A stretch of DNA of 64,000 nucleotides from Rhodobacter sp. (GTDB lineage: Bacteria > Pseudomonadota > Alphaproteobacteria > Rhodobacterales > Rhodobacteraceae), in assembly GCA_027484145.1 (NCBI GenBank), contig JAIXUH010000033.1, positions 1 through 64,000 of the forward strand. The letters run 5' to 3'. Below are positions 15,772-45,244 of this stretch, piece after piece. The notes beneath the pieces are model-generated. The model was not told where the DNA came from, did no database searches, and saw nothing but the letters and a program-made list of their open reading frames with translations. Numbering within the stretch: position 1 is the stretch's first letter; each line of letters opens with the position of its first letter. The translations under genes were made by a program, and so were the position numbers.

Positions 15772-15836
15772 ACACGGTCAGGTCCGAAGCAGGCAAGAAG
15801 CCGAACGAACCCAGCCAGCGGCCTTTCCGGAACGAA

Positions 15837-15860
15837 AACGCCAGCCCGAAGGCTGGCGTT
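15837..15860 (-). terminator. Perfect 10-bp stem-loop, intrinsic terminator of the cysteine-peptide gene
   Basis: AACGCCAGCC and GGCTGGCGTT form a perfect 10-bp stem with a CGAA loop. Read on the minus strand the stem is followed by TTTTCGTT, which fits termination of the 15884-16009 gene. On the plus strand no T-run follows, though the hairpin may still help insulate the convergent DUF411 gene. Confidence 0.8.
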
Positions 15861-15883
15861 CCCCTCGTTCAGTCAAGTGCAGA

Positions 15884-16009: not shown

Positions 16010-16045
16010 AGGTCTCCTTGATGAGGTTGAATTGGGAGTGTCATC

Positions 16046-16372: not shown

Positions 16373-16691
16373 GGCCGAACGATCATCTGTCCGGCTCTTT
16401 GACGCAAATCACAAACGGGACAGCTCGCTGACCCTTTGTGTTGAGAGGGAGCACTCTTTTCTCCGATTGCACCTCACGGTCCGACCGCAGTCTGAAAAGA
16501 CTACGAGCTCGCACTCAGGCGCAGTCATCACGCATCGGCACCACCGACGGGATGGCGACGGCCTTCTTCAAGCGGCGCAACAAGGTCTAGGAGGCATTGT
16601 TCGCCTCCGTGAAGCAAGGCTTTGACCAGCGGATACCACGCCTTCTGGTAGCAGCCGAATAGCGGATTCCAACCCCGAAAAGACCTTGGCC
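16373..16691. other. Non-coding junction between copper island and plasmid-type genes
   Basis: No frame with domain or start support was found. The sequence is unlike either flank in codon rhythm and may be a remnant at the island boundary, but I see no inverted repeats, transposase fragment or target-site duplication to prove it. Confidence 0.35.
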
Positions 16692-30341: not shown

Positions 30342-32525
30342 ATGGAAAACGACAGCAATGCAGGGCTGAAACGCCCGGAAACAGAGCGCCGCGATTTGGA
30401 GCCTCCGGCCACAGAGCGACCCAAGGAATACTTCTCGGTTCGCCTGACGCTTTCGGGGGCAGCACAGGAGTTCGAAGACCCCCGTCTGGCGGGCGAGGCG
30501 TTCTTCCGCGCCGATCCGGCAGAGCGGCCATCGGTCGCGCATATCGATGGCAATACTGCACGGACTATGGCGCGCACCGAAATTCACGGGGTCCATGAAA
30601 GCGGCGAGAAGCGGTATTTCAAAAGCCTGCCGGACTCGCATGCGCCGGATGCCGAGTTCCGCGCCGGGTTTCTGAATGCGATGGAGGCCTCGCTGACGGA
30701 GCGGTTGGGCAATGTCGAGTGGGGAAAAGACGGCCCCGCAGTGACCGAGCGGCTTGATACAGGTTTGAGGGACGATCTCGAGGCCCTCGCGCGTCGGGAG
30801 CCAGAAAAGGCGGCGACGCTTTGGGCAGATCGCAGTGACGCGGTCCCGCCCGGGCCGACATTGCGCGAGGCGGTGCAAGCCCTCGAAGCAACCGCAGATC
30901 GTGACGTCGCTGCCCACCAGGACGCCCCTGCCGAAAAGCCATCCATCATCGCAACAGGCGACTGGGTCACGACTGATGCAAATGTCGAACTGAGGCCCGT
31001 GGCGGTAGCAAGTGATCGGGGCATTCACGCAGGCTACGAGGCAAATCTGCCGGGATGGGAGAATGAAGTCACAGTCTCCGAGCGCACCTTCCCGAATTCC
31101 CGCGAGGCGCTGCGCCATGCTTATGATTTCTACGAGGGTGGTGAGGAAGGTCTCGAAGTGGCGGTGAGTCGTGCAGCCGAGATTGATCGCGAGTTGGCGG
31201 AAGAACCCGACCGTGGACCTGAAGGGCTCGTCCTTGAGCATCGGCCACAGCCCGAGTTTGCCCGCCCCGAGACTGCGATCTATGCGGGCGATGAAGCGCA
31301 GCTTGTCCTGACCCTTGGCCGAGACACTGAAAACACCCGTGACCTAGCCGAGCGGCTCGTCGCCGACCCGGAATTTCGGAAGGTGGTAGCCGACCATATC
31401 CCTGATGTGGACGGCACGCTTGGCACCGGTCGCTTTGTCGACGGCGAAGGCTCCGCAGGATTTCTACCCTACGAGCTTTTGGCCGTTACCTCCTATGGTC
31501 GCAATGGCGGCGCCGAAGTTCTGGCGAAATTCCCCGATGAGGGTCCGCTCAGTGAAGCCTTGGCCAAGCATCTGACGCATAGCCCGGTGATGGCGGCCTA
31601 TGTCGAAGAGGAACAGCAGCGTAGCGATTTTGCTTCCGACCCGGCGCGGGCAATCTCGGCCTGGGTGGCGCAATCAACCGCGCAGATCGACAGATTGCCG
31701 TCGGACCGGCAGGACGACCTGCGATCTGAAATGCAGGGCATCGCCAAGGAAGCAGCGGCGGCCTTTGGGCTGGATCGACAGCAGTCGGAAATCGAAGCCC
31801 CGCCCCGTTCGACACTGTATAGCACCACCATCGGCGCAAACACGTTGGCGATTGCCGGGGCCGAGAAAGACCTCGACGAAAGCAGTGCCAAGATGTTGAG
31901 CGCTACTTTGAGTTCATATGCGAACATCGCTGGGATCGATTTCAAGAAGCTTGAGACGCGACTCGAAACTGGGGCGGCCAACGCCCGCGAAGAAGAGTCG
32001 TGGGTGAAATCCGATATTGCCGATGTCGCCAAGCGGCATGGCTTTGATCTCAGCAGCGCCCAAGGTCGCAGTTCGGCGGCCGAGCGGGTGGATCGTTTCT
32101 ACGAGCGTGCAGCCGAATTGATCCAGTCCGCCCGCAGCATTGAAGTGACCCGTGGACCTGACCCGCTGGTGGAGGCTTTGGGTTCACTGGCGCGCGTCCA
32201 TGCCAGCCAGGGATCCGTCGCCTTCCGAAACGAAAATCAGGCGCGGGACTTCGCGGAAGAGATGAAGGAGCGCTACGGGGCGACGGTATTGAAAGACATT
32301 GCCGCAGGCCGGACGGAGGCACTGGCCAAGGACGTGCCCGACCCGGCCGCTCGGGCGGCAATGGCCGTTGCCGTCGTCTCCGCTGCCAAGGAACACCCCG
32401 CGCTTGGTCTCAGCGCGCATGAAGCCGAAGCGGCGGAACGCAGAATGGTGGCGCAAGCGGCGTCGCGGCCACCTGAACACGCGCGGGCGCATGCCCACGA
32501 TCGCAATCAGGACCGGGAGTTTTGA
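30342..32525 (+). CDS. Relaxase-tail paralogue between virB11 and virD4, no relaxase domain
   Basis: A 727-residue, acidic, mostly helical protein without signal or membrane helices. Its last 200 residues match the tail of the MobA relaxase encoded at 42868: for example LETGAANAREEESWVKSDI against LATGAANAWEERDWVRSDL, and AGRTEALAKD with AVAVVSAAKEHPALGLS against SGRTEALERD with ARAVVSAAKSHVAFGLT. The N-terminal part lacks the three-histidine motif and the catalytic tyrosine. The shared tail may be a VirD4/T4SS docking region, which would make this a secreted or coupling accessory protein; that is inference. It ends in a TTGA overlap with virD4. Confidence 0.75.
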   Translation: MENDSNAGLKRPETERRDLEPPATERPKEYFSVRLTLSGAAQEFEDPRLAGEAFFRADPAERPSVAHIDGNTARTMARTEIHGVHESGEKRYFKSLPDSHAPDAEFRAGFLNAMEASLTERLGNVEWGKDGPAVTERLDTGLRDDLEALARREPEKAATLWADRSDAVPPGPTLREAVQALEATADRDVAAHQDAPAEKPSIIATGDWVTTDANVELRPVAVASDRGIHAGYEANLPGWENEVTVSERTFPNSREALRHAYDFYEGGEEGLEVAVSRAAEIDRELAEEPDRGPEGLVLEHRPQPEFARPETAIYAGDEAQLVLTLGRDTENTRDLAERLVADPEFRKVVADHIPDVDGTLGTGRFVDGEGSAGFLPYELLAVTSYGRNGGAEVLAKFPDEGPLSEALAKHLTHSPVMAAYVEEEQQRSDFASDPARAISAWVAQSTAQIDRLPSDRQDDLRSEMQGIAKEAAAAFGLDRQQSEIEAPPRSTLYSTTIGANTLAIAGAEKDLDESSAKMLSATLSSYANIAGIDFKKLETRLETGAANAREEESWVKSDIADVAKRHGFDLSSAQGRSSAAERVDRFYERAAELIQSARSIEVTRGPDPLVEALGSLARVHASQGSVAFRNENQARDFAEEMKERYGATVLKDIAAGRTEALAKDVPDPAARAAMAVAVVSAAKEHPALGLSAHEAEAAERRMVAQAASRPPEHARAHAHDRNQDREF

Positions 32526-34519
32526 TCTTGCAACGCATTGCTTTGCTGCTTCCCCTTGGTCTCACCTCCGGCCTGCTTGTCGGCCTCATCGCCGGGGGTC
32601 TTGTCCTCAACCTGATCTTGGGGCGCGATCCGAACGCAACCGGCATCTTTGTCCTGATTGCCGAGTTCCCCGGTTTCGCACGGCTGACCTCAGTGCCCTG
32701 GGTCCTGCCTTGGCAGATCGTCGGTGCATCAACGGTGCTCTTCACGATTGCGGCGGTCGCCCTGACCTTCCGCCAGCAGCTGACCGAATATGGTCAGGCC
32801 AAGTTCCAGGCGCGCGCTGAGATGAAGGCCAATGGCCTTATGCAGCCCTTGGGCGCAGGCATGGTCTTCGGCAAGCTGGGCGCCCCTTCAAAGACCGCGC
32901 CTTACGTCAGCGCCACGTTCCAGAAGTTTCCGCATTGTCTTGTCGTGGCACCAACCAGGGCCGGTAAAGGCGTGGGCTACGTCATTCCGAACACGCTCCT
33001 CTTCAACGGCAGCATCGTGGTGCTCGACGTGAAGGGCGAAATCTTTGAGGCAACTTCCCGGCACCGCCAGGCCGAGGGTGACGCGGTCTATCGCTTTTCG
33101 CCTTTCGATTTTGAACATCCGACCCATCGCTACAACCCGCTCGAGCGCGTCGCCCGCGTTGAAAATCTCGAACAACGCTATACCGAACTGGCCAAGATCT
33201 CAGACTACTTCTTGACGGTTTCCGACAAAGGCACCGCTGGCGACTTCTTGACCGAAGGGCGTGAGTTATTCGTCGCTGCAGGGCTTCTGGCCATTGAGCG
33301 GGGCAAGCCCACCATCGGCGAGATCAGCCGGATCCTCTTTGGCCGGGGCGCCACCCAAGAGGTTTATGGCGAACATGCCGAAGAGGTGAAACACCCGAAC
33401 GCCGCCCAGACCTTCCGCAAGTTCGCGGGGTATTCCGACCGTACCTTGTCTTCCCACGCGTCCGTTCTGGGCGGCGCGGGCATGACGCTTTGGAACAACC
33501 CGGCCGTGGATCGCGCCACCTCCGGCAATGATTTCTCCTTTGCTGACCTGCGCAAGCGGCCGATGTCGATCTATGTCGTCGTTAACGCCGATGACATCCG
33601 CACCTTGTCGCCTTTGGTGCGGCTCTTCTTCGGAGAACTGATCGCCACCATGCGCTCCACTCTCCCCGACCCGAAATCCGAGCCATGGCCGGTCATGGTC
33701 ATGCTTGATGAATTCGACCAGTTGGGGCCAATGCCGATCGTCGAGCAGGCGCTGAAGCAGTTGGCCGGCCACGGTGCGCGGGTGTCGATCATCACCCAGT
33801 CAATCCCCGGTCTTGACAACATCTATGGCGAGAATGTCCGCCTGTCGCTCGAGTCCGCCGCCGGCATGAAGCTCTACCTCGCGGCCAACGACAAGAAGAC
33901 GGCTGGAGAGATTTCGGATGCGTTGGGCAAGACGACCAAGCTTTCGGTCTCGGACAGTGTGTCGAGGGATCGGGACTTCATGCAGCGGCGATCTGTCAGT
34001 CGACGAATGGAAGAGCGGCCACTTCTGACCCCTGATGAGGTGCGGCGGTTGAATCCTGATCAGGCGATCCTCATCCCGGAACGGCAGAACCCGCTACTGG
34101 TCCAGCGGATCGTTTATTTCCAGGACCCGACCTTCAAGAAGCTGTTCGACGCACAGAAGGGTTCCCTGCCCTATCCGCCCAAAGAGGCTGCAGACGTGCA
34201 GGTGCTGACCCAACGGATGGAGGCGTTGGAGCGGCGGCTGGCCGAACGGATGCTGGTGGATTTTGTGCGTCCGGAGAAGGCGAAGGCTGAAGCCCCGGTT
34301 GAGCCGGAGCCGAAACTTGCGGCCGAGATAGTGGCGCGGGATGAGATCGCGCCAGAGGCCGAACTGGCAGCAGTCAAAGCTGATGCGACAACCACAATGG
34401 AACAGGCCGAAGCCATCGCAGACCTCGAGGTTGATCTTGCAGCCTTGAAGCCACCGACCACGATCGCGGTTTCCAAGATAAGTAAGTTTTCTCGGAAGCT
34501 CACTGGCTTAGAAGTGTGA
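32522..34519 (+). CDS. virD4: VirD4/TraG coupling ATPase
   Basis: A 665-residue type IV coupling protein that feeds the relaxase-DNA complex to the channel. Two N-terminal membrane helices (about 5-30 and 60-85), Walker A PTRAGKGVGYV near residue 144, and Walker B VMLDEFDQLGPMP. The C terminus beyond about 540 is variable and acidic/Ala-rich, as expected for a substrate-specificity region. The start is TTG at 32522, overlapping the stop of the upstream gene. This is the last transfer gene before the cargo block. Confidence 0.95.
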   Translation: MILQRIALLLPLGLTSGLLVGLIAGGLVLNLILGRDPNATGIFVLIAEFPGFARLTSVPWVLPWQIVGASTVLFTIAAVALTFRQQLTEYGQAKFQARAEMKANGLMQPLGAGMVFGKLGAPSKTAPYVSATFQKFPHCLVVAPTRAGKGVGYVIPNTLLFNGSIVVLDVKGEIFEATSRHRQAEGDAVYRFSPFDFEHPTHRYNPLERVARVENLEQRYTELAKISDYFLTVSDKGTAGDFLTEGRELFVAAGLLAIERGKPTIGEISRILFGRGATQEVYGEHAEEVKHPNAAQTFRKFAGYSDRTLSSHASVLGGAGMTLWNNPAVDRATSGNDFSFADLRKRPMSIYVVVNADDIRTLSPLVRLFFGELIATMRSTLPDPKSEPWPVMVMLDEFDQLGPMPIVEQALKQLAGHGARVSIITQSIPGLDNIYGENVRLSLESAAGMKLYLAANDKKTAGEISDALGKTTKLSVSDSVSRDRDFMQRRSVSRRMEERPLLTPDEVRRLNPDQAILIPERQNPLLVQRIVYFQDPTFKKLFDAQKGSLPYPPKEAADVQVLTQRMEALERRLAERMLVDFVRPEKAKAEAPVEPEPKLAAEIVARDEIAPEAELAAVKADATTTMEQAEAIADLEVDLAALKPPTTIAVSKISKFSRKLTGLEV

Positions 34520-34644
34520 CGACACGGCTCTTCACAAGCTCAACCACCGTCTGCCAGATCACGTATCATACTGCAGCGTGCACAGACGTTCCCAAAGTGG
34601 CTACCGGCAGTTCCAGCGAACTGCTTTTATGGTACTTTCTCAGC

Positions 34645-34672
34645 TTGCTCCTGCGTCATCCCCAGTTATGAT
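34645..34672 (+). promoter_or_regulatory. Candidate promoter of the phosphoribosyltransferase operon
   Basis: TTGCTC (34645-34650), 16-base spacer, TATGAT (34667-34672). Transcription would start near the ATG at 34679, and no Shine-Dalgarno sequence precedes that ATG, so the message could be leaderless. This is pattern matching only. Confidence 0.35.
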
Positions 34673-34678
34673 CTGCCT

Positions 34679-35899
34679 ATGATTTCAAATGGCCTCGCTC
34701 TAACGCTTATTGCAGATGTAATGGAATGGGACGGGCCGACCGCAACCCGAGAGTTCGGTTGGCTCAGACTCATGGCGGCTGTGAAATATGACGGATATGC
34801 TGATTTCGCTGCTGGTGCCGGCTTTCTGGAGGCATTGGTCGATTGGATGCGTCAGTTCGACACCGCTGCTGATCGAAATGTTGCCTATCGTTTCGTGAAG
34901 GATCGACTTGTCTACATATCGACAGCAGAGATGCATCGTGTTGTGGAGGCTTTTCTCCCAGAAATCGTCACTCCATATCTTCGTCAAGAGGTGGCTCGGG
35001 CGCATGGTATAGCACCTTGGCGGGTCTGGGCCTCGCCAGAGTCTGCAAAGGCATTCGAAGAACACCTCCGTCGATGCCTTTTTGTAGGACTGAGCGATGG
35101 TAGCCGCATCGACGTCCTGCGACGCTCCAATGTAGGCCGTCTCTCACAGGAACAGGTTGTTCCCATGATGAATGTGGACGAAGCCAAGTGGGAGAGTCTC
35201 GGCGTGGATCTGATGAAGGAAACGGGGCAAGGTCCTGAATCGCGCTTCCAGGACGTCTATTTAATCGATGACTTCACAGCGTCGGGTACCACCTTTATTA
35301 GACAAAGCGGTGGCGAGGTGAAGGGTAAGTTAAAGAAATTTAACGATATAGTCGTTGCGGCTCGAAAGTCGATCGAAGCTCGAGGAAAAGTGTTTCCGAT
35401 CGCGAAGGACTATAACCTCCATATCCATCATCATATCTCAACTGCTCAGGCACGCGCAGCCCTCGTGACGCGCGTGGACCAGCTTGCTTTGGGCCTCGAA
35501 GGGCGTGACTTCAACGATTGTGTGCGGGTCACCGAATGCTTGTTGTTGGGAAATGACCTTCCGCTCGGCCACGCACAGACCGGTCTTAAAGCTGCAGGTG
35601 CGGTCGAGCAGGACGCAGTTGGTTTCGCTCCAAACCGATGTGGCGCGAACACAATTGACCGGGCAGTGCTCGACCTTTGCGAGAAAACTTACGACCCTGC
35701 ACTTTTCAAGCAGGCCGAGAAGCATTGCAGAGAAGCCGGGATGGCGACTATGTGCTACGGTTATGGCGGCTGCGCCTTGCCTCTTGTTCTGGAACACAAC
35801 ACGCCCAACAATTCAATTCCGTTGATTTGGTCAGAGACCGGCCCCGCAATCAACCCGCGAATGAGGCCGCTCTTCCAGCGTCGCCAACGGCACGGTTAA
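34679..35899 (+). CDS. Phosphoribosyltransferase-like protein, first gene of the cargo operon
   Basis: A 406-residue protein whose centre carries the PRPP-binding signature VYLIDDFTASGTT (residues 193-205): two acidic residues followed by the phosphate loop. The N-terminal 130 residues are helical and could be a wHTH-like or recognition domain. Other striking blocks are LRRSNVGRLSQEQVVPM (about 147-163) and LVLEHNTPNNSIPLIW near the end. I recall a group of phosphoribosyltransferase-like proteins with such an HNTPNN block placed among conflict systems, but could not check it. It probably uses PRPP or a ribosyl-phosphate ligand. The ATPase gene starts 3 bp downstream. Base composition is lower in GC than the transfer genes. 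Confidence 0.82.
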   Translation: MISNGLALTLIADVMEWDGPTATREFGWLRLMAAVKYDGYADFAAGAGFLEALVDWMRQFDTAADRNVAYRFVKDRLVYISTAEMHRVVEAFLPEIVTPYLRQEVARAHGIAPWRVWASPESAKAFEEHLRRCLFVGLSDGSRIDVLRRSNVGRLSQEQVVPMMNVDEAKWESLGVDLMKETGQGPESRFQDVYLIDDFTASGTTFIRQSGGEVKGKLKKFNDIVVAARKSIEARGKVFPIAKDYNLHIHHHISTAQARAALVTRVDQLALGLEGRDFNDCVRVTECLLLGNDLPLGHAQTGLKAAGAVEQDAVGFAPNRCGANTIDRAVLDLCEKTYDPALFKQAEKHCREAGMATMCYGYGGCALPLVLEHNTPNNSIPLIWSETGPAINPRMRPLFQRRQRHG

Positions 35900-35902
35900 A
35901 AT

Positions 35903-37810
35903 ATGGCAAACCCTTTTCTCAGGCGTGCGACAGAATATATCCGCGACGCGGAAGCGTTTCTATCAATAGTTAGCCCGCTACCTTTGACGACATTTTTGGC
36001 CGAAAGCCCTCACAAGGAGCATCTTTTTACGCATTTGATTCGGATCATCGGTTCGCCTGGCACGGGAAAAACAATGTTGGCCACGCTGGCAGAGTTCCGA
36101 ATGGTTGAATCGATCTTGAACGACCAGAGCAGCACTACCAATAAAGCGCTAGCGCGCGCACTCGCAGATGCAGGCTTTGTAGTTGATCAATCCCCTCACG
36201 TGGCAGCGATACGCATTCCAATGGAGTCCGAGTACCGCGATTTTTGGGAGTTGCCTTATCCGGAGGAAGTGCGCACAAAGCTCGCGTTTCGACTCCTCCA
36301 AGCTCGTGCAATGCTTGGACTCATACGCAACCTCACGGCCAAGGGCACTAGATCACTTGATCAGATTCGCTTCAAGTCGCGAGCCGAGTTTGAGGCGCAG
36401 GCAGTTCAGATAGGAGGACTATCGGCAGAAGGATTGCGGCGGCGAGCAATAGAAGTTGAACGTGCGATTTACGGTGTAGGTTCAGGTTTGGTTCCCCCAT
36501 CGTTAGACAAACTGCCAGCCGATGCGATTGCCCCTTATGATCCGTTTGATGTTATCCACGCTATCGAAATCGATTGGAACGGGACTTGGATCGAATTGCG
36601 GCCCCTGGCGATGCTCGATGACGTTCACGACTTACATCACGATCAACTTGAGGCCCTGTTTGTTGCTCTGTCCCGCCGCGAGATGCAGTTCGGCCGTTGG
36701 ATGATGATGAGGCTCGACGCTCTTAGCCCAGGAGCAGTATTGCGATCACCAACCCTTCAGCCTTCCCATAACCGGGCTCAGGGGCGGGACTTCTTTGATG
36801 TACCGATGCAGGTCGACCCTAACAAGGCGCAAGCACGCAAGAAGTTTCGCAAGATGGCGAAGGGTATCGCCGACCTTTATCTTCCGATGATTGAAACTTT
36901 TCGAAACCGTCCTCCTCCACCCCTGCAGGCCTTGCTATCAAGCGCTCCGCCGAAGCTAACACCTACCCAATTGAGCGAACTGCAGCGATCGGTAGACAAA
37001 GATCAGCAAAAGCTCGGTATCACTGCCGCGCGGCGTTCCATGATTAATGAACTAGTCTCCGATTACGCGAAGACTAACGCTTTTGATGTTGGGGATGATG
37101 TCTCTGCCGCAATGACGCGCATACTTTTGCATCGCTACGACAAACGTGTTTCACAATCGACCCCCTCACTTTTTGGTGATGAAGACGATCCGGATCCGAA
37201 AAATCCTCTCAAGGCCGATGGTGATGTAGCACATGGCGCTCGACTGCACCTTCACCATGCGTTTGACCGCCCCTTGCATTACGGTGTCGATGAAGTTTGC
37301 GATGCGAGCAACGAGAACGCCGAGGTCTTTCTAGGGTATGCTGGCGAATTGGTGGGTGAGGTCGAGACGCGAGCCATCCGCAGGCGCCCGCTCGAATTAG
37401 AGCCGACAATTCAACAACGTGTCCTAGCGGGCAGAGCCCGGCGCACCGTAGAACAGTGGGCCTTCCCACAAGCGACTCGTGTGCGTTCGTTGACTAACGC
37501 AATTGGGCAGGCGTGCGTGGCTCGGTCGCTTGAGCCCAATGCACCACTCGGCGCAGGTGCAAACGCAGTGGCAGTCTTGGAAGAAGAGTTCGGAAAGCTA
37601 CAAAGCGATGATGTGGTTCTTCTTGTTCTTAAGCATGCTGTCGCCAGCGGCGCAGTTACGATCGAGCGTGATTATGGACAAGGCGGCAGATTGTGGTGCC
37701 TTATCGAACTCACAGGAACAGTCGCGCTGGTCCATGGACTGACTTTTATTCGTGGCGGATTCATCCCCGTAAAGGAGCGATTTTTGCGCGAGGCCATCGA
37801 GAATGCGTGA
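35903..37810 (+). CDS. AAA ATPase of ORC/CDC6-like type, second gene of the cargo operon
   Basis: A 635-residue P-loop ATPase. Walker A GSPGTGKT at residues 50-57 sits very near the N terminus, and LAMLDDVHDLHHDQLEALF near 235-253 provides Walker B with a following acidic pair. The region after 330 is helical, and residues near 500-560 may form winged-helix modules. The layout resembles the ORC/CDC6-like ATPases I associate with phosphoribosyltransferase-like partners; the name is recalled and not checked. It probably senses a DNA or protein trigger, or remodels a partner, using ATP. It starts 3 bp after the previous stop and overlaps the next gene by 8 bases. Confidence 0.8.
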   Translation: MANPFLRRATEYIRDAEAFLSIVSPLPLTTFLAESPHKEHLFTHLIRIIGSPGTGKTMLATLAEFRMVESILNDQSSTTNKALARALADAGFVVDQSPHVAAIRIPMESEYRDFWELPYPEEVRTKLAFRLLQARAMLGLIRNLTAKGTRSLDQIRFKSRAEFEAQAVQIGGLSAEGLRRRAIEVERAIYGVGSGLVPPSLDKLPADAIAPYDPFDVIHAIEIDWNGTWIELRPLAMLDDVHDLHHDQLEALFVALSRREMQFGRWMMMRLDALSPGAVLRSPTLQPSHNRAQGRDFFDVPMQVDPNKAQARKKFRKMAKGIADLYLPMIETFRNRPPPPLQALLSSAPPKLTPTQLSELQRSVDKDQQKLGITAARRSMINELVSDYAKTNAFDVGDDVSAAMTRILLHRYDKRVSQSTPSLFGDEDDPDPKNPLKADGDVAHGARLHLHHAFDRPLHYGVDEVCDASNENAEVFLGYAGELVGEVETRAIRRRPLELEPTIQQRVLAGRARRTVEQWAFPQATRVRSLTNAIGQACVARSLEPNAPLGAGANAVAVLEEEFGKLQSDDVVLLVLKHAVASGAVTIERDYGQGGRLWCLIELTGTVALVHGLTFIRGGFIPVKERFLREAIENA

Positions 37811-38987
37811 TCATTGGATGAACTGCATCACTCATCGTGACAAGGAGGTAGACACGTTCTTAGCCGACTATTTCGATGACACATCGAGACATGTCCTATT
37901 GGTAGCCGGAGCAGGCTTTGATCCACGGTCACGCATGGTCGCTGAGAAGCTAGCATTAACTCTGGGAAGTCGGCTAACTGCAATCTTCATACGAGAAGAG
38001 AGGCCGGGCGCGGATGCGATGTTGCGGGAACGTGCCGATGGAAATCAAGCTTTGCTTTTTGCCGCCGTGCCCAACAGCGAGGTGATTGAGGTCAATATAT
38101 TTGCTGATGATGGTGCGCCTGTTGGAGGTGCGCGCATTGCTGCAGAACTAGCTGGTCGACCACTTCCCAGCAACGTTACCGACGTTCTCCTTGATTTAAG
38201 TGCGTTGTCGATCGGGGTTGGATTTCCTGCTGCCAAGCTGTTACTTGAGCGTTGCGAGCAAACTGAGCACACGGCATTCCACCTAATTGTCGCTTCCAAC
38301 CCAGTGCTCGATGATTGTATCCGTAGCGAGTCGTCCGATCGTCCAAGTCCCGTGAGAGGTTTCGCACCACTAGCTGATACCAATGGGGATCAGAGTGACC
38401 TAGAGGTGGCACAGGTCTGGATTCCGCAACTTGCTCGAGGGCTTACAAAAACCCTGCATCGCATCGGACGGCAGCTGCAGGTCCGCGACTTTTACAAAGT
38501 TTGCCCAGTACTGCCGTTTCCGGCGCGTGACCCACGGCGTGCCGATGATCTAATAGGCGAGTATGAGGAACAGATTACACAAGAGTGGCACGTCGATCCA
38601 CGCGATTTCATCTATGCTTCTGAATGGAACCCGCTGGACACCTATCGAAGGCTGTCTAGACTGAAGCTTCGGTTCGACAGGACCATGCGTGGTACTTTCG
38701 CTCTCCAGATGATCTTGTCGCCCATCGGCAGCAAAGTCATGGCTGCAGGCGCGCTCATGGCCGCAATCGAACACGATATGGTTGTGCAGTACGTTGAGAC
38801 TGAGAGCTACTCTTTGGACAACACTTCTCAAGAAGTTGGTGGAAAAACAATTGATCATGATGGCAATGCGTCTCTGGTACATGTAATTCTTTCAGGGCCT
38901 CTTTACGGCGCATTCCCGTCCACAGTGTCATCGCTTCCAGGCACACAGGAAGAAGATGCCAATCTGTCCAATGTCGCCACAAAATGA
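37803..38987 (+). CDS. Unknown protein with two Rossmann-like motif regions, third gene of the cargo operon
   Basis: A 394-residue soluble protein that I do not recognise. Near the N terminus, a beta strand and glycine loop HVLLVAGAGFDPRSR (residues 30-44) look like a nucleotide- or ligand-binding Rossmann loop; a second strand-loop SPIGSKVMAAGALMAAIE (306-323) followed by VVQYVETESY resembles the ligand loop of CARF-type sensor domains. The middle contains VCPVLPFPARDPRRADD. It could be a sensor or an enzyme acting on a sugar-nucleotide. It is locked into the operon by an 8-base overlap upstream and an ATGA overlap downstream. The fold assignments are inference. Confidence 0.75.
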   Translation: MRDHWMNCITHRDKEVDTFLADYFDDTSRHVLLVAGAGFDPRSRMVAEKLALTLGSRLTAIFIREERPGADAMLRERADGNQALLFAAVPNSEVIEVNIFADDGAPVGGARIAAELAGRPLPSNVTDVLLDLSALSIGVGFPAAKLLLERCEQTEHTAFHLIVASNPVLDDCIRSESSDRPSPVRGFAPLADTNGDQSDLEVAQVWIPQLARGLTKTLHRIGRQLQVRDFYKVCPVLPFPARDPRRADDLIGEYEEQITQEWHVDPRDFIYASEWNPLDTYRRLSRLKLRFDRTMRGTFALQMILSPIGSKVMAAGALMAAIEHDMVVQYVETESYSLDNTSQEVGGKTIDHDGNASLVHVILSGPLYGAFPSTVSSLPGTQEEDANLSNVATK

Positions 38988-40945
38988 CATCGAGGAAGTT
39001 CAGCGCCAAGCTCAGCAGCCTTCCCGACACTCTTGCATTGGTGCGTGAATTTGAGCCAGTGGGGCTTCGAAACGCCCTGGACCGCGCAAGACATAGGCGC
39101 GTCGTGGCAGTCGGAGCTGGAGGCAGCCATGTTTCGGCAGCCTACCTGGCCAGATGCCGCCAAACTCTTGGCCACGCTGCCACAGTAGTTCAGACTCCGA
39201 TGGAGTTGGTTCTCGATGTCTACGATTTAGACGACACTGAGGTTTGGCTGTTTAGCGCAAGCGCGAACAACGCCGACGCCGCCGCAGCGGCCCGTGCTGC
39301 CCTAGACCGCGGCTGCGCAGCCTTCGTTCTATGCACCTGCAATCCTGATGGAGTCGTAGCGCGATGGGTTGTTGATAGCGGTTGCGAAATATGTGTCTTT
39401 CCGGTTGCTGACAGAAAAGACGGCTACCTCGCGACCCATTCTCTGATTGCAACTATCGCCAGCCTCCTCGTCGCCGCCGAATGCCTCGGCGGCATCGAGT
39501 TTGAAGCCGCGCTTGATGAACTGGACCGTGTTTTGGCCCGTTCTCTAGCTACTGAGGCACGAGCAGATCGGATGAGGACTGTAGCTGATCTCAGCGCCGA
39601 CTCAACGATCATTGCAATCTTCGATCCCAGACTGTTCCCGCTTAGATCGCTCATCGAGACCTCGATCTGGGAAGCAGCAATTTGCCCGGTCCAAGTGACC
39701 GATATGCGTAACTTTAGCCACGGCCGCCACGCTTGGCTCCACCACTACGGCGACCGCTCGTGGGTCTTCACAGCCACAGGAAATCTATCAGGAAGTTCGT
39801 GGGAGGCCATACGATCAGTACTCCCCTCACATGTGCCGGTGATAGTTGCGGACTATGGCGACTGTGGACGGGTCGAGACCGCCCGCGCCCTTATTGACGG
39901 GCTTGGGTGGATCGAAGCGATGGGTGCAAGTGTGGGGATCGACCCTGGCAAGCCCGGCACGGGTGAATTTGCACATTTGATGTATGAAGACGAAAGTCTC
40001 GACCTGCTTGCAATCCAACTCTCTCCACCCGTCAGGCAGAAATTAGCTGCCGCAGTTCGAATGGGCATCCAGGCACCCGACGTGATGCTGACCGCTTCAG
40101 CGTGGCGCCGACATTTTGATGGTCTATGCGACGTCGCCATCGGCGGCCTAGTCTTGGATTACGACGGAACTATGGTGACTACGAAAGGGCGTTTCGACCC
40201 ACCGGACCCGGCGATCATTGCCGAATTAATTCGGCTCCACGATCAGGGCTTGGTGGTCGCCTTTGCTTCCGGACGTGGCAAATCGCTTGGCAGCGCCCTA
40301 CGTAGCGTACTTCCAAGTGCTATGGCTGCTGAAACCATTATAGGCTACTATAACGGTGGGCACATTCGCATGGCTTCGGTCGATATCAATACTCCAGGAG
40401 AACGGCCGGAACCTGATCCAAGTATTGCAGAAGCTGCAGGCTGGATCGAGGCTCAACCGAACCTCCTTCGGGCCAGCGAGCTAGATTTTCAGGAAATTCA
40501 AGTTGCAGTCCGCAAATCTGACCTATTGCGCCCAGAATCATTCGCTCACGATCTCAGTGTTTGCCCGGCCGTTGCCGAGGGCCGAATTACAATTGTCTCC
40601 TCGGCCCACAGTTACGACCTCATTCCATCGACTTCGTCGAAACTGCGCGTTGTGAATGCCGTAGCCGAGCGTGTCGGAACTCACCGCGCCGTCCTGTCGA
40701 TGGGCGACAGCGGTGCACCGATGGGTAACGACCACAATTTAATCTTAGGGCCGCACGGGATCAGCGTAGGGACGATTTGTGGCGACCCAGCTGGTTGCTG
40801 GTCGCTCTTCGGCACAATCACAACGGGACCGACAGCGCTTCTCAGAGTACTTCAGGCAATGTTACCATCGGAAGGTGGCGAGATTCGCTTGGACCGAGCG
40901 GCTCTAAACCTTGACGCACGAACACCACACCTCTACAGGCCGTGA
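38984..40945 (+). CDS. SIS-domain and HAD-phosphatase fusion protein
   Basis: A 653-residue two-enzyme fusion. Residues about 25-170 form a sugar-isomerase (SIS) domain: VVAVGAGGSHVSAAYLARC with the phosphosugar loop SASANNADAA at 91-100. The middle may hold a second SIS-like half. Residues about 385-620 form a HAD hydrolase of Cof type: nucleophile motif LVLDYDGTM with Asp392 and Asp394, AFASGRG as motif II, and SMGDSGAPMGND with Asp575 and Asp583. SIS domains bind or isomerise phosphosugars and HAD enzymes remove phosphate, so the protein probably acts on a sugar or ribosyl phosphate. It starts in an ATGA overlap and ends close to or overlapping the kinase. Confidence 0.85.
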   Translation: MTSRKFSAKLSSLPDTLALVREFEPVGLRNALDRARHRRVVAVGAGGSHVSAAYLARCRQTLGHAATVVQTPMELVLDVYDLDDTEVWLFSASANNADAAAAARAALDRGCAAFVLCTCNPDGVVARWVVDSGCEICVFPVADRKDGYLATHSLIATIASLLVAAECLGGIEFEAALDELDRVLARSLATEARADRMRTVADLSADSTIIAIFDPRLFPLRSLIETSIWEAAICPVQVTDMRNFSHGRHAWLHHYGDRSWVFTATGNLSGSSWEAIRSVLPSHVPVIVADYGDCGRVETARALIDGLGWIEAMGASVGIDPGKPGTGEFAHLMYEDESLDLLAIQLSPPVRQKLAAAVRMGIQAPDVMLTASAWRRHFDGLCDVAIGGLVLDYDGTMVTTKGRFDPPDPAIIAELIRLHDQGLVVAFASGRGKSLGSALRSVLPSAMAAETIIGYYNGGHIRMASVDINTPGERPEPDPSIAEAAGWIEAQPNLLRASELDFQEIQVAVRKSDLLRPESFAHDLSVCPAVAEGRITIVSSAHSYDLIPSTSSKLRVVNAVAERVGTHRAVLSMGDSGAPMGNDHNLILGPHGISVGTICGDPAGCWSLFGTITTGPTALLRVLQAMLPSEGGEIRLDRAALNLDARTPHLYRP

Positions 40946-40947
40946 GA

Positions 40948-41898
40948 ATGTCCGACACTCATACACTTGCACCGCGCCTCGACGTGGCTGGAACTGGCTT
41001 TACTGTGCTGGATCGCGTCTATTCCGATGGAGTATTGGCGGACGAGGCTCTAGGCGGCTCGTGCGCCAACGTTTTGGTGTCTCTGGCAATGCTCGGCTAC
41101 CGAGTTGCGCCAGTACTTTGTCTAGGCGCTGATGACACTGGGGCAAAGCTAGTGGAGGAGTTCGTCCAAGCCGGCGCTTTAGTCGAATTCATCTCCCAGA
41201 AGGATCATCTACGATCACCAATCGTCGCCGAAGAGATCGACACAGCCACCGCAAAGCACGGGTTCAGCTTTCGATGCCCTGTTACGCATCTTGACCTGCC
41301 GCGCTATGAACCCATCGGTGTCACCGAACTGATCGATGCTGCGAGCGCTCTCGGCAATTGCTCGATTTTCTATACTGATCGTCTAACGGCGGAAATCCTT
41401 GAAGCAATGCGATGCGCGTCACAGTCTGGAGCACTAGTTATTTTCGAGCCATCCGCGCTGGACGATGCCGAGATGTTCGCTGATGCTCTTCGCGTCACAA
41501 CCATTCTGAAAACGTCCGCGGATCGCATCTCCGGCGAAATTGATAAATGGACTGTGGATTCGAGTACGTACCTTTGGATCGTGACACACGGCCAAGCTGG
41601 GCTGGAACTACGGACCCCGATTAATCGGCTTTGGTGTCCAGCGATACACGCGCCCGTTTTGCGCGATGCCTGTGGGTCAGGCGACATGGTGACGGTCGGC
41701 TTGATCGACGGACTGCTTAGTCGACCCTTTTTGGGCGGTAGGTTAACTACGAACGATGTTGTCGCTGGGGTAATGGCCGGTCAACGATTGGCCGCAGAGA
41801 ACTGTGGATTTGAAGGAGCTCGCGGTCTATTTCGTAAGCGTGGCGCATCCTATGTCCGGGCCATACTTGATAGTACCGGCAATTCCGAAACGGCGTAG
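40948..41898 (+). CDS. PfkB/ribokinase-family sugar or nucleoside kinase
   Basis: A 316-residue PfkB kinase. The N-terminal signature GGSCANVLVSLAMLGY carries the sugar-binding glycines, and the ATP/catalytic motif DACGSGDM contains the catalytic aspartate at about 246. The family phosphorylates ribose, nucleosides, fructose or related sugars. A GTG at 40942 overlapping the previous stop is an alternative start; the ATG at 40948 is preferred. It ends 10 bp from the convergent NADAR gene. Its substrate is not deducible, but with the PRTase and phosphatase it fits a ribosyl-type intermediate. Confidence 0.88.
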   Translation: MSDTHTLAPRLDVAGTGFTVLDRVYSDGVLADEALGGSCANVLVSLAMLGYRVAPVLCLGADDTGAKLVEEFVQAGALVEFISQKDHLRSPIVAEEIDTATAKHGFSFRCPVTHLDLPRYEPIGVTELIDAASALGNCSIFYTDRLTAEILEAMRCASQSGALVIFEPSALDDAEMFADALRVTTILKTSADRISGEIDKWTVDSSTYLWIVTHGQAGLELRTPINRLWCPAIHAPVLRDACGSGDMVTVGLIDGLLSRPFLGGRLTTNDVVAGVMAGQRLAAENCGFEGARGLFRKRGASYVRAILDSTGNSETA

Positions 41899-41908
41899 CT
41901 GTAAAACC

Positions 41909-42400
41909 CTATTCGGCTGCGATCTCGGACTCGGCCGGAAGATCCGCGGGCAGTGCCAATTTGGCCCTAAGCTCCATCAGCATCTCGCCCAACATGTTGC
42001 GCCCTTCGCCGTTCACCTCGCCCCAAAGACGGTTGACGGCATTATCTTCTGTTGCGCTCTCAACGAGTCTTGCCGTTTTTGTGGAGAGTAAGAGATCACG
42101 TAGATCATCGTGCTGAGTAAACTTAGCGTGCAGGACTGCGCGCATGCGATCGAACTTTGTTTTCGACCAGCCGGGAGCTACGTCCCAATAGTACAGACCG
42201 TGGGCCGCCATAGCTAGCAGCGCAGGCGATGGTGCTGCCATCAGCCATGCCCTAACTGCTGGCTTTCGTGCCTTGCCGGCTTGGTAAGCATGTTCGCTCG
42301 TAACAAACCGCTCGCCTTCAAAGACGATTTCTCTACGGAACAGGTTGCTGAACGCTCCGTAGGGTTTCTCACTTGCGCGATAGAAATGTATCTCATCCAT
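41909..42400 (-). CDS. NADAR-family protein (YbiA/RibX-like ADP-ribose or N-glycoside hydrolase)
   Basis: A 163-residue NADAR protein. The fold markers FYRASEKPYGAFSNLF (residues 6-21), SEHAYQAGKA (35-44), DRMRAVLHAKFTQHDDL and the terminal GEGRNMLGEML are all present. Family members cleave N-glycosidic bonds in riboflavin precursors (YbiA/RibX type) or remove ADP-ribose from guanine (as reported for NADAR partners of DarT). The ATG at 42400 is preferred; an upstream TTG at 42430 is possible. It is convergent with the kinase and divergent from the XRE regulator, sharing a 48-bp intergenic region with palindromes. This suggests joint regulation with the cargo genes, which is inference. Confidence 0.88.
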   Translation of the reverse strand: MDEIHFYRASEKPYGAFSNLFRREIVFEGERFVTSEHAYQAGKARKPAVRAWLMAAPSPALLAMAAHGLYYWDVAPGWSKTKFDRMRAVLHAKFTQHDDLRDLLLSTKTARLVESATEDNAVNRLWGEVNGEGRNMLGEMLMELRAKLALPADLPAESEIAAE

Positions 42401-42413
42401 AGAAGTAAAGTCT

Positions 42414-42449
42414 TGCAAATTTCTCTGCAAGTCAACATGCTAATTTGCA
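42414..42449. promoter_or_regulatory. Putative XRE operator between the NADAR and XRE genes
   Basis: Two copies of a TGCAAATTTGCA-like motif sit in the divergent gap: TGCAAATTTCTC with a further TGCAA (42414-42430) and TGCTAATTTGCA (42438-42449), the latter one mismatch from the perfect palindrome found at 42615-42626. The second copy touches the start of the XRE gene. Autoregulation is the simplest reading. Confidence 0.6.
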
Positions 42450-42796
42450 TGAAACTCAAAAGCGACGAGATTGATTCACTTGCACGACGGATTGACGGCC
42501 AGCGGCGTAGAGATGGCCTTACTTATGCAGATTTGGCACGAAAATCTGGAGTGCATCCTTCTCAAGTTCAACGAATTTGCCATGCCGATTTCCGTACGCT
42601 TGGGTCAAATGTCATGCAAATTTGCAGTGTCCTTGGAATTGATTCCTCTTGCGACATCACGATTGGTGCGCCTGCTGACCCGGACTGGCTGGAACTTCAA
42701 CGCACAGTTCGTATGGCTTGGGATGGCACGCCCTCTGGTGCATCTGCCATCGCAGAGTTGATCCGTGCAGCTGTCGCTTTTCGAAGATCCGATTGA
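42449..42796 (+). CDS. XRE-family transcriptional regulator
   Basis: A 115-residue protein with an N-terminal helix-turn-helix at about 24-48 (LTYADLARKSGVHPSQVQRI) followed by the usual third/fourth helices. The C-terminal 45 residues carry DWLELQRTVRMAW. Start candidates are ATG 42449 and ATG 42437 (four residues longer). It is divergent from NADAR and ends 71 bp before the convergent relaxase gene. Palindromes in the gap, inside the gene and just after it suggest an autoregulated switch controlling the neighbouring cargo genes. Confidence 0.82.
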   Translation: MKLKSDEIDSLARRIDGQRRRDGLTYADLARKSGVHPSQVQRICHADFRTLGSNVMQICSVLGIDSSCDITIGAPADPDWLELQRTVRMAWDGTPSGASAIAELIRAAVAFRRSD

Positions 42797-42853
42797 TGTG
42801 CCTACGTCGCATTCACCATTCGATGCAGCAAACTCGCCCCACTGCAAATTGCA
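42615..42853. repeat. Further copies of the TGCAAATTTGCA-type palindrome
   Basis: A perfect 12-base palindrome TGCAAATTTGCA lies inside the XRE gene at 42615-42626, and an 11-base TGCAAATTGCA palindrome lies in the gap downstream at 42843-42853. With the two intergenic copies at 42414-42449 this gives four sites within 440 bp of an otherwise GC-richer replicon. Confidence 0.6.
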
Positions 42854-42867
42854 TGTGCTGTCATGCC

Positions 42868-44694
42868 CTAAAGTTCCAAATGATTACCGCTCCCCAGCCC
42901 CAGTTGGCCTGCCAAATCACGCTCAGCCTTGCACGCTTCGCGCAAAGTTAACCCAAACGCCACATGTGACTTGGCTGCAGAAACAACCGCCCGCGCGATC
43001 CATTGCCGCTGGCGAGCATCCTCGAAATCCCGTTCCAACGCTTCTGTCCGCCCGCTGGCGAGTTCCGCCACAACCCCTTTCCCATACCGCTGCCGCAACT
43101 CATCGGCGAACCGCTCGGCATGAGCATCTCCCCGGAACTCAACCTTGCCATCCGTCTGCATGATGCGGCCCATCGACCCGAGGGCCCGCAGCAGCCGGTC
43201 ACTGTCCGGTGCCACATCATGTTCGCGGGCATGCCCAATTAGCTTGGCCGCCGTCTCATAGAAACCTTCAAGATCATCGACGACCTTCCGGCTCTGATCC
43301 GGGTTGCGAAGATCTGCACGCCGCCGCCCCGATAGGGCCAACAAGTCACTACGCACCCAGTCGCGCTCTTCCCAGGCATTGGCAGCACCGGTCGCCAACC
43401 GTTCAGCCATTCGGTCACCGCTTAGGCCCAAGCCGACAGCTTTGCCGACGATGTCCGTTTTCAGTCGGTCGGCGGCATCTGGCTGCAAAGCAACGGCCTC
43501 TTTGCCCTGCGTCAGCCGGTCACCCTCAAGACCCGTCGCGTAAAGCTTGGTGTGCGGCAACATTTGCAGCAGCTGCGCACCTCTCGCATCGCCCAAGCCT
43601 TTGGCGATTTCGATGGCATAGCCATAAAGCTCGTCCCGCATGTCCTTTCGCTCCGCGACAGGCATCTTCCGGATCTTGCCCTCCGCCTCTGCCATCCAGC
43701 CGCTGAAATGCCGGTCCAGATCGGCGCGTTCCGCCGTAGCCACATCGCCCGGAAATGGCTGCAACACCCCGCCCCGGCGCAGAGCCTTTTCTGCCTCGGC
43801 GATCTTCTCGCCAATCTCCGGCAGGCCTGTGAGCGCTGCAACATAGCTCAGGCGGCGCATGGCATCCGCAGTGCGCGCCATCGTGGCCAACGCATCCTCC
43901 AACGCCTTACCCTCGCGCTGCCTTTCTTCCGGCGCCCGGCCCTCGACCCGCGCCCGTTCGATTTCCGCCCGCGAGGGACCATAGGTCAGCAAGCCGCGCT
44001 CAGCGCGCGAGGTGGCATCCAGAAACACGCCCTCTTCGGCTGCGATGGCCACCATGCGCTCCTTCATGACATCTAGGTTGAAGACATGCTCCTTGGCCAT
44101 GAAGAACCAGCTGTCATTCACAGTGCCCCGGTTGTTGACGACCATGTGCACATGCGGGTGCGCCTTGTCGGAGTGCAGGGCCGCAACATAAGACCAGACA
44201 TCATCCTGATGCTCGCCTGACTGGAACATCTCGAAGGCCCAGGCTTCGGCGATCAGCTTTGCCTTCTCTGGCCGCACATGCGACGGGAAGCTCATCAGGA
44301 GGTGGGTCGTGTGGCCGTTCTTCGGCGAGCCGCGCCAATCCTCGACCCAATCACCGACGATCGCGATGCGCTCATCTTTGGTCAGACCCTTGGCATCGGC
44401 ATCCAGCACGACCCCGTTGCCGAAGATCGAGGCCGACTTCGAGAACAGATAGTCCATCTGGGCGGCCAGTTCCTTGGCATTGGCCGTCCCGCCCTTACCG
44501 ATTTTCTTCAACACAGCAGCGTTTGACCCAAGCGAAAACCGCCATAGCTGGCTGGCCCGGGTCGAGAAACTGAACCCACGCTTTGCGGGCGAAGAACTGC
44601 CCTCCTTCACCCTGCCCTGCTGCGGCCGCAGGAAGTTGATCTCCCCGAGAACCGCCTCTGCAACCCCGATGGGGCAGGACCCAAGCTTAACCAT
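42868..44694 (-). CDS. mobA: MobA/VirD2-type relaxase (MOBP-like)
   Basis: A 608-residue relaxase that nicks oriT and pilots the strand through the type IV channel. The ATG at 44694 has AGGAGG ten bases upstream. Candidate catalytic Tyr is Tyr82 in AQMDYLFSKS; motif III is HPHVHMVVNNRG with the metal-binding histidines at about 179-183, preceded by HTTHLLMSFP. The C-terminal 250 residues are helical and resemble the tail of the 30342 gene product. It overlaps the mobC stop by 8 bases. Its 3' end faces the cargo block. Confidence 0.93.
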   Translation of the reverse strand: MVKLGSCPIGVAEAVLGEINFLRPQQGRVKEGSSSPAKRGFSFSTRASQLWRFSLGSNAAVLKKIGKGGTANAKELAAQMDYLFSKSASIFGNGVVLDADAKGLTKDERIAIVGDWVEDWRGSPKNGHTTHLLMSFPSHVRPEKAKLIAEAWAFEMFQSGEHQDDVWSYVAALHSDKAHPHVHMVVNNRGTVNDSWFFMAKEHVFNLDVMKERMVAIAAEEGVFLDATSRAERGLLTYGPSRAEIERARVEGRAPEERQREGKALEDALATMARTADAMRRLSYVAALTGLPEIGEKIAEAEKALRRGGVLQPFPGDVATAERADLDRHFSGWMAEAEGKIRKMPVAERKDMRDELYGYAIEIAKGLGDARGAQLLQMLPHTKLYATGLEGDRLTQGKEAVALQPDAADRLKTDIVGKAVGLGLSGDRMAERLATGAANAWEERDWVRSDLLALSGRRRADLRNPDQSRKVVDDLEGFYETAAKLIGHAREHDVAPDSDRLLRALGSMGRIMQTDGKVEFRGDAHAERFADELRQRYGKGVVAELASGRTEALERDFEDARQRQWIARAVVSAAKSHVAFGLTLREACKAERDLAGQLGLGSGNHLEL

Positions 44695-45244
44695 GGCGCG
44701 CGCCCTCCTGAGCTTCGACAAACTTGCGGAATAGAGCCACACCTTGCCGCCGGCGTTCGGCGATGATCTGGCTCAGCGCCTTCGCCACCATCGGCAGCGA
44801 CCTTCGCAACTCATCCACCGATGCCCACTGCGCTTTGACCATCGGCGCCCTGCCCCGGTTCGCAGCCAAGGCGATCTGGTTCACGTTGGTGCCGATCTTG
44901 CCCAGCTCATAGCGGATTTCGTCCAGCTTTGCGCAGTCCTCCCGGCTGAACTCGAGGAAACCTGAGGCCATCCGAACCACCGACCGCACCCCATCCGAGC
45001 GGGATTTCGCGCCAATCTGGGTGCAAAGCGCATCGAAGGCATGAAGTTCTTCGGCGGGCAGGCGGCAGCTCACGACCTGGCCCTTGTCTGCCGACCGAGG
45101 CCGTCCGCGTCCACCGACTTGCTGCACCGCAGAATCAGAAACTTCATTGCCAACACCCGCCAAAACCATGGACCGCGATTTAAGTCTTGTTTCGCGAGGA
45201 TCTGATTTTACCGCCAACTTCTGCCACCGATTATTTGTAGACAC
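44687..45244 (-). CDS. mobC: MobC-type relaxosome accessory protein
   Basis: A 185-residue DNA-binding accessory protein that helps the relaxase at oriT. The MobC signature ELGKIGTNVNQIALAANRGR is at about 112-131, and an upstream RHH-like segment VVSCRLPAEELHAFDAL is at about 57-73. The start is GTG at 45244 with a CAGGAA-type ribosome site; an internal ATG at 45169 is possible. It is co-translated with mobA. Confidence 0.88.
   Translation of the reverse strand: MSTNNRWQKLAVKSDPRETRLKSRSMVLAGVGNEVSDSAVQQVGGRGRPRSADKGQVVSCRLPAEELHAFDALCTQIGAKSRSDGVRSVVRMASGFLEFSREDCAKLDEIRYELGKIGTNVNQIALAANRGRAPMVKAQWASVDELRRSLPMVAKALSQIIAERRRQGVALFRKFVEAQEGARHG

Follow-up and report, generated by a model that had tools for sequence, protein, structure and literature searches.

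A block of genes found in a Rhodobacter sp. contig (JAIXUH010000033.1, assembly GCA_027484145.1; positions 1-64,000 of the forward strand, a stretch of 64,000 nucleotides hereafter called the window) is almost certainly a real and conserved gene system, whose five-gene core recurs in bacteria of several phyla. Its five co-directional open reading frames (ORFs; 34679-41898) encode a phosphoribosyltransferase (PRTase), an AAA+ ATPase, a CARF6-family protein, a fusion of SIS and HAD domains and a PfkB-type kinase, and they are followed by a convergent gene for a NADAR protein and a divergent gene for an XRE-type regulator. The core is made of two co-inherited modules, module A (PRTase, ATPase and CARF6) and module B (SIS-HAD and PfkB), and its genomic context indicates that the gene set is likely to serve in conflict or defence. 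The set appears to be undescribed in the searchable literature, though it may have been described before. The genes of the block and of its borders are as follows:

34679 to 35899, forward strand: PRTase-CE phosphoribosyltransferase (PF24390), 406 amino acids, proposed effector
35903 to 37810, forward strand: ORC/CDC6-like AAA+ ATPase, 635 amino acids, with Walker motifs and with PF24389 matches across the family
37803 to 38987, forward strand: CARF6-family sensor (PADLOC CARF6), 394 amino acids
38984 to 40945, forward strand: fusion of a SIS (phosphosugar-binding) domain and a HAD-IIB phosphatase, 653 amino acids, assigned by PDB profile matches
40942 to 41898, forward strand: PfkB/ribokinase-family kinase (PF00294), 318 amino acids
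41909 to 42400, reverse strand: NADAR N-glycosidase (PF08719) of a system-specific clade, proposed antidote (42400 being the probable start)
42437 or 42449 to 42796, forward strand: XRE-family regulator (HTH_3), divergent from the NADAR gene
32522 to 34519, forward strand: VirD4/TraG coupling protein (PF02534, E=8e-96), left border of the cargo slot
42868 to 44742, reverse strand: MobA/VirD2-like relaxase (PF03432, E=6e-9), right border of the cargo slot

Conservation and genomic setting

A first-pass annotation of this DNA had proposed that synteny conserved in unrelated hosts would support a system, and such synteny was found. A scan of GTDB species contigs yielded 330 PRTase relatives, of which the best 80 were kept, a sample in which the most divergent relatives are not represented. 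All five genes were present in 68 of these 80 loci, and in 56 of the 57 with adequate flanks (at least 2.5 kb upstream and at least 6.5 kb downstream of the PRTase; the other 23 were dropped as too short). By their record titles, the isolate hosts include Pseudomonadota, Planctomycetota (Singulisphaera), Actinomycetota (Mycobacterium sp. and Paenarthrobacter), Bacteroidota (Chryseolinea) and Chloroflexota (Kouleothrix), and metagenome-assembled genomes widen the host range to further phyla, including a 'Chlamydiae' assembly (L028) that may be mis-binned. With homologous loci in several phyla, the arrangement is not confined to a single element. In a plasmid collection, 17 records carry the CARF protein and 18 the SIS-HAD protein, the former all being contained in the latter; fifteen of the CARF records were read (all but CP039919 and CP049221), and 14 of them contain the five genes, several of which are split in L008, while L016 lacks PfkB.

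Independent searches of 398 Pseudomonadota genomes gave the same picture. The Pfam family PF24390 scored over its cut-off in 18 of them, and a PRTase of the system type (more than 400 bits with the system profile) in five, namely the window genome and those of L144, L148, L149 and L150, in all of which it sits within the system, that of L150 having no PfkB. A full-length SIS-HAD protein was found in six of the 398 genomes, the window's own included, the next scores dropping from 494 to 36 bits; five of the six are the five PRTase genomes, and the sixth has a 4-kb contig which reads CARF-SIS-HAD-PfkB. The system is rare in other samples as well: of 289 genomes of the class, 3 have the CARF protein (the window's own being one), and of 246 genomes of the phylum of genome G681, 2 have SIS-HAD (G681 being one). 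Searches for the ATPase in viral contigs and for SIS-HAD in a phage collection gave nothing useful.

The five genes of the window are as tightly packed as they had been described, with a 3-bp gap followed by overlaps of 8, 4 and 4 bp, and 10 bp lie between the end of the NADAR gene and the stop codon of PfkB. The convergent NADAR and divergent XRE orientations also hold, with different starts: alignment to relatives indicates that the NADAR gene probably begins with the ATG at 42400 rather than at 42430, where the ORF opens, and the XRE gene starts at 42437 or 42449, not at 42281. Since the longer ORFs open upstream of these probable starts, the two genes can be read as divergent with no overlap required. 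The block occupies a cargo position between the coupling-protein and relaxase genes, as had been noticed, and MobC-like and VirC1/ParA-like genes are further members of the flanks. Its GC content agrees with the earlier estimate of about 55% (54.5% for 34679-42796, while the window outside 34520-42867 has 61.2%), whereas the 62-75% given for flanking genes proved too high (60.1% for virD4 and 61.9% for the relaxase).

Other copies of the system are found on plasmids, some of them large, and also on large contigs that are possibly chromosomal. Among 98 loci, an XRE-type regulator is the sole widely recurring flank family (31 loci), followed by recombinases (11) and an RHE_PE00001-type protein (9), with a coupling-protein-like gene near five copies; these family names were taken from plasmid annotations and by eye. 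The recurring families are mainly recombinases, transposases and transfer genes, and the flanks otherwise vary. The borders of the window's slot have close relatives of their own: virD4 has DNA about 87% identical in two Gemmobacter plasmids, and the relaxase gene DNA 85-86% identical in two Gemmobacter fulvus plasmids. In a plasmid of Gemmobacter aquarius, which has transfer genes in common with the window at 86% identity, the defence genes of Hachiman (HamA and a helicase) directly follow virD4, and an Abi-family gene lies about 7 kb beyond them. All in all, the system is accessory, rare and often carried on mobile DNA, and it is without a recurring metabolic neighbour.

Protein families and modular architecture

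The domain calls of the first-pass annotation for the PRTase, SIS-HAD, PfkB, NADAR and XRE proteins agree with the domain and profile matches. The first protein matches PF24390 (PRTase-CE) with E=3e-18 and 66.9 bits against a curated cut-off of 27. Its PRPP (phosphoribosyl pyrophosphate) loop residues D198 and G203, together with the motif H373-N374-P376-N377-N378, are invariant in 103 of 103 aligned rows, and residue 197 is D in 98 rows and E in the other five; phosphoribosyl transfer from PRPP is its putative activity. The ATPase is a P-loop AAA+ protein with the Walker A residues P52, G53, G55 and K56 and the Walker B residue D239 invariant in 103 of 103 rows. Its call as ORC/CDC6-like comes from the family, in which PF24389 is matched by 13 of 15 members with E<=0.01 (8e-29 at best), whereas the window protein itself falls below the cut-off (E=0.03, 13.5 bits against 27).

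The 394-residue protein had been seen as sensor-like and of unknown family; it belongs to a known family, CARF6 (PADLOC, E=6e-100). Its AlphaFold model has a Rossmann-like fold with a predicted local distance difference test (pLDDT) value of 91.2, and its structural matches include the CARF nuclease Can2 (8q42; E=1.6e-4, probability 1.00, low template-modelling score) at rank 33, behind top matches to regulatory domains of transporters. The CARF profile found one match among PDB sequences, with E=0.25. No nuclease domain was recognised in this protein in the domain and profile searches of the seven proteins, and it is a putative sensor of a nucleotide ligand.

In the SIS-HAD protein, the HAD part was detected by domain search (E=1e-4), and the SIS part, weak in the single protein (E=0.1), is backed by the family profile, which matches PDB entries 3hba and 8eol at E=2e-7 as well as HAD-IIB phosphatases. 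The HAD residues D392, D394, R431 and D575 and the SIS residues R242 and H246-H249 are invariant in 96 of 96 rows. The kinase (PF00294, E=2e-11) has fructokinases as its best PDB matches, and its residues G245, G247 and D248 are invariant in 90 of 90 rows. As for the two remaining genes, the NADAR protein (PF08719, E=3e-24) has E. coli YbiA as its nearest PDB entry, and the XRE gene product carries an HTH_3 domain (E=1e-5).

The architecture of the system was derived from 105 distinct loci, of which 76 are complete, a term that required PRTase, ATPase, CARF and SIS-HAD and left only PfkB and NADAR free; 29 of 106 loci had been dropped for short flanks or missing members, and L017, L019-L021 and L105 were not entered. 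These counts are corrected for one locus recorded under two names (L148 = L078), which is counted twice in the identity correlations and in the NADAR tree below, and near copies from different records exist (L092, L094 and L096; L010 and L052). The two main gene orders are SISHAD-PRT-ATP-CARF-PfkB and PRT-ATP-CARF-SISHAD-PfkB with a convergent NADAR. Among the complete loci, 39 have PfkB only, 34 have PfkB and NADAR, 3 have NADAR only and none has neither. Of the seven genes first proposed as a set, five form the core, and NADAR (37 of 76 complete loci) and XRE accompany it in part of the family only.

Pairwise identities correlate at 0.94-0.96 among PRTase, ATPase and CARF and at 0.94 between SIS-HAD and PfkB, as compared with 0.73-0.80 between the two blocks and 0.64-0.76 between NADAR and the other members. 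In L003 and L007, a module B similar to that of the window goes with a distant module A; in L003 and L010, two copies of module A are accompanied by a single module B, one gene of L010 being broken. The identity of the system NADARs to the window copy remains at about 61-78%, also in loci in which that of the ATPase is down to about 20%. Several genes of other kinds were noticed next to individual copies: one for a patatin-like phospholipase beside or between module copies in L003 (14466-16091), L070 and L073, one for a caspase-family protease just past the system NADAR of L002 (Rhizobium sp. CB3060; 15052-16506), and one for a nucleoside 2-deoxyribosyltransferase with a small partner upstream of the Sphingomonas copy (L007, 1248-2656).

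Relatives in retrons, conflict systems and phages

In the other 13 of the 18 genomes with PRTase-CE proteins, the system was not seen in the stretches read, some of which are short contigs. Two retron-like loci tested with hidden Markov models, L141 and L147, are type III-A retrons in which a PADLOC PRTase_III-A is paired with RT_III-A, and several more look retron-like by eye. For type III-A1 retrons, PRTase/WH genes are described as the typical effectors (PMC12548924). The block and these retrons are alike in having a PRTase of PF24390 that matches PADLOC PRTase_III-A (E=1e-10 for the window protein). Unlike the retrons, the block contains no reverse transcriptase, none being found in the domain and profile searches of its seven proteins, and it adds AAA+, CARF, SIS-HAD, PfkB and NADAR proteins; moreover, intact system PRTases reach at least 392 bits with the system profile, whereas other PRTases stay below 50. 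No Rfam match was obtained in 34000-46000, although Rfam need not contain a retron non-coding RNA of this kind.

Other arrangements are related to parts of the system. In L139 (9531-13215), which holds a divergent triad, the same two families, PRTase-CE and ORC-CDC6-like (E=1e-126), are adjacent, and the third gene encodes a CARF-like protein (pairwise hhalign probability 92% and E=7e-7 against the CARF profile); by eye, the neighbouring ORFs resemble dGTPase and dUTPase. In two Hma-like loci, L136 (9102-11035) and L137 (9333-11267), a NADAR gene comes immediately after that of a distant PRTase-CE, in a context of helicase, DUF1156 methylase and DUF499 ATPase genes (domain matches computed on L136) that contains no match to the system profiles of CARF, SIS-HAD or PfkB. 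DarT-NADAR (DarTG1) and YarT-YbiA also place a NADAR N-glycosidase beside a predicted base-ribosylating enzyme, which is in their case an ADP-ribosyltransferase that uses NAD+ and in the block a PRTase predicted to use PRPP, accompanied by further enzymes and a CARF protein; domain search found no ADP-ribosyltransferase domain in the block. Ter-linked nucleoside-like pathways, known from the work of the Aravind group, pair a PRTase with an HAD enzyme and share this theme with the block. The first-pass annotation had already set the block apart from them, and rightly so, as none of the families Ter, PRTase_2, TRSP and PELOTA is among the domain matches of the seven proteins; an identity with these pathways was rejected on this ground.

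The NADAR protein extends these relationships to phage DNA. In the 398 genomes, NADARs of the system type (at least 277 bits, the next best having 113) occur at seven places, four in the system and three outside. Of the latter, L201 (genome G404, 7671-8231) is part of a prophage that also encodes integrase, terminase, portal, head and tape-measure proteins, L202 (G434, 7980-8462) stands beside phage-type exonuclease, helicase and primase genes, and L203 (7739-8197), a second copy in G308, has a stop inside the match and a context that was not assigned. In the plasmid set, eight of the 40 records with a NADAR reach at least 70% identity, and all eight carry the system. Of 39 related contigs in IMG/VR, eight show 63-75% identity and the others 27-43%. 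The system is present on two of these eight; on the remaining six, the NADAR stands alone within the stretch read, and one of the six is the L201 element. All INPHARED phage records are below 60% identity, the top-ranked at 46%. Altogether, most of the stand-alone NADARs of the system clade (L201-L203, L205 and L207-L211) come from phage DNA or from viral contigs of IMG/VR. A phrog_12600 protein is encoded near the NADAR of L210, and a protein similar by eye near that of L202.

A tree of 65 NADAR sequences was built from 47 system rows (46 distinct loci), 8 stand-alone and 10 outgroup rows, with L203 labelled as phage without proof and L201 also representing L205, which has the same ORF starts and lengths. 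The system and the eight stand-alone NADARs form one clade against the outgroup (support 96/97), and the stand-alone copies nest among those of the system, which takes three label changes or more on branches with good support; L201, L202 and L203 cluster (96/93) with the system NADAR of L148, a locus from their own host family (Magnetococcales by title). Long outgroup branches make depth inside the clade uncertain. That NADAR and XRE are chance neighbours was rejected, given that all eight plasmid NADAR records at or above 70% carry the system and that the clade is present in 46 system loci. NADARs are described as established antitoxins that reverse the ADP-ribosylation of guanine, and phage NADARs as proposed protection against host enzymes (PMC11543638, PMC11125620, PMC9503650); YbiA is described as cutting riboflavin intermediates at their N-glycosidic bond (PMC11543638, PMC11125620).

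A proposed conflict system and its rivals

The explanation we favour is an anti-phage (conflict) system that is frequently found on mobile DNA and is composed of two modules plus an antidote, although in this complete form it could as easily prove wrong as right. Module A would be a sensor-effector unit, in which the AAA+ and CARF proteins would restrain the PRTase and release it upon infection. The released PRTase would then use PRPP to place a phosphoribosyl group on a base-type target, either nucleic acid or nucleotide, a modification that would stop growth or phage replication. The NADAR N-glycosidase, whose availability the divergent XRE regulator would ensure, would strip the adduct and protect the host, and phages would carry the same NADAR clade as a counter-defence. 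Module B might handle phosphosugar, perhaps by clearing released or misplaced sugar phosphate, perhaps by making the ligand of the CARF protein.

A conflict system is favoured because the five genes co-occur, their catalytic motifs are essentially invariant and the modules are co-inherited, because the effector family is shared with retrons, Hachiman occupies the same slot in a related plasmid and the NADAR clade is present in phage DNA, and because every one of the 76 complete loci has PfkB, NADAR or both. In this sense, the interpretation of the first-pass annotation as a conflict system is supported, with defence as a probable and its theme of ribosyl chemistry as a predicted part of it. 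The pairing of a PRTase effector with a NADAR antidote is, taken by itself, an evenly balanced proposal, which is suggested by the distant PRTase-CE that directly precedes a NADAR in L136 and L137.

Several observations weigh against the favoured explanation. The adjacent antidote is not universal, as 39 of the 76 complete loci are without NADAR, and over the 20 kb read at L139 the triad is accompanied by neither SIS-HAD nor PfkB (nor NADAR), so that not every triad requires module B. The model of the PRTase (pLDDT 89.9) has weak structural matches, the best with E=0.0098 and consisting of dehydrogenases mixed with PRTases, and a PDB sequence search with the PRTase profile gave no match; the acceptor and even the activity are thus putative. 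Some loci carry parts of the set: L055 (10007-11796) is degraded to a PRTase and a truncated ATPase within 10-kb flanks (21 kb read), L017 is a lone SIS-HAD amid sugar-transport genes, and in the viral contig L105 (9122-12290) a weak PRTase match (47 bits) adjoins a weak ATPase match (30 bits) only. On the side of context, Hachiman in the slot is a single record, two other plasmids with such a virD4 carrying other cargo, and of the elements with a stand-alone NADAR, only L201 was shown to have virion genes nearby.

A different explanation would be a messenger pathway, in which PRTase, PfkB and SIS-HAD make a nucleotide-like second messenger or an antiviral nucleotide, the CARF protein is its receptor, the AAA+ protein acts as infection sensor or effector and NADAR degrades the messenger. 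We regard it as possible but rather unlikely. It would account for three metabolic-type enzymes with intact active-site motifs being co-conserved with a CARF protein, for SIS-HAD and PfkB flanking the triad in one common gene order, and for a single module B serving two copies of module A in L003 and L010. It fits less well with the absence of PfkB from 3 of the 76 complete loci, with the lack of any recognised cyclase or ligase among the seven proteins, and with the presence of the same PRTase family in retrons that have neither SIS-HAD nor PfkB. The messenger pathway also draws on the apparent scarcity of other ligand sources. In 40 system-bearing genomes, the Cas10 palm scored over the Pfam cut-off in 12, the window genome not being one of them, and the CD-NTase family (SMODS) in 8, the window genome included. 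The Cas10 matches consist of a strong one (104 bits), an intermediate one (36 bits in a 739-residue frame) and others at about 27-33 bits, which would be cross-hits to GGDEF-type domains, and the SMODS match of the window genome is weak (36 bits) and lies on another contig (G000:C12:33269-33682), in a region (L187) where a scan found no system genes. The CARF ligand therefore probably does not come from Cas10 or CD-NTase synthases in most hosts, and the CARF protein would need another source.

The same data bear on the idea that the block is an accessory effector of type III CRISPR or of a cyclic-oligonucleotide-based antiphage signalling system (CBASS), triggered by a cyclic oligoadenylate or a cyclic dinucleotide, which we consider highly improbable. 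CARF domains are described as ligand-binding regulators of defence systems (PMC4012209), the CARF6 sensor family is common to the block and to CARF effectors of type III CRISPR, and Can2 with bound cyclic tetra-adenylate (cA4) is one of the structural matches of the CARF model. Against it, no family of cas or CD-NTase genes stood out among those that recur in the flanks of the 98 loci, the window genome has no Cas10 match, and its CARF protein differs from those effectors in having no recognised nuclease domain. A CBASS link was rejected as a general one, with SMODS in 8 of 40 genomes and no CD-NTase among the seven block proteins, and so was a type III CRISPR link read from the PADLOC name PRTase_III-A, since this name belongs to the type III-A retrons and convincing Cas10 matches are rare. 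An ordinary operon for sugar-nucleotide salvage, metabolite repair or plasmid maintenance is also improbable. Its enzyme folds are metabolic, and the combination of SIS and PfkB is reminiscent of the kinase/deglycase pairs for Amadori sugars; the kinase also matches fructoselysine 6-kinase weakly (E=0.019), and carriage on large plasmids and the sugar-transport neighbours of the lone SIS-HAD point in the same direction. Such an operon is at odds, however, with the rarity of the genes and with variable flanks of mobile type, on account of which a known housekeeping pathway, the outcome that would have spoken against the first-pass proposal, was judged unlikely; and it leaves the CARF and ORC/CDC6-like proteins and the NADARs in phage DNA unexplained.

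The favoured conflict system could be taken one step further, and tentatively so, the step being somewhat doubtful. It might represent a separate class of immunity, neither CBASS, CRISPR, retron nor DarTG, in which PRPP-driven phosphoribosylation would be the weapon or the signal, with a PRTase gated by AAA+ and CARF proteins, a dedicated phosphosugar module of SIS-HAD and PfkB, and a NADAR eraser that phages would have captured from their hosts for counter-defence. If the favoured conflict system is real, a phosphoribosyl-based conflict system with a five-gene core would be added to the repertoire of several phyla, the CARF6 and PRTase-CE families, the effector of type III-A retrons included, would gain a testable chemistry, and there would be a reason why some phages carry NADARs of the YbiA type. 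The NADAR clade common to hosts and phages would then offer a handle on the whole system, as the substrate of the NADAR would reveal the product of the PRTase.

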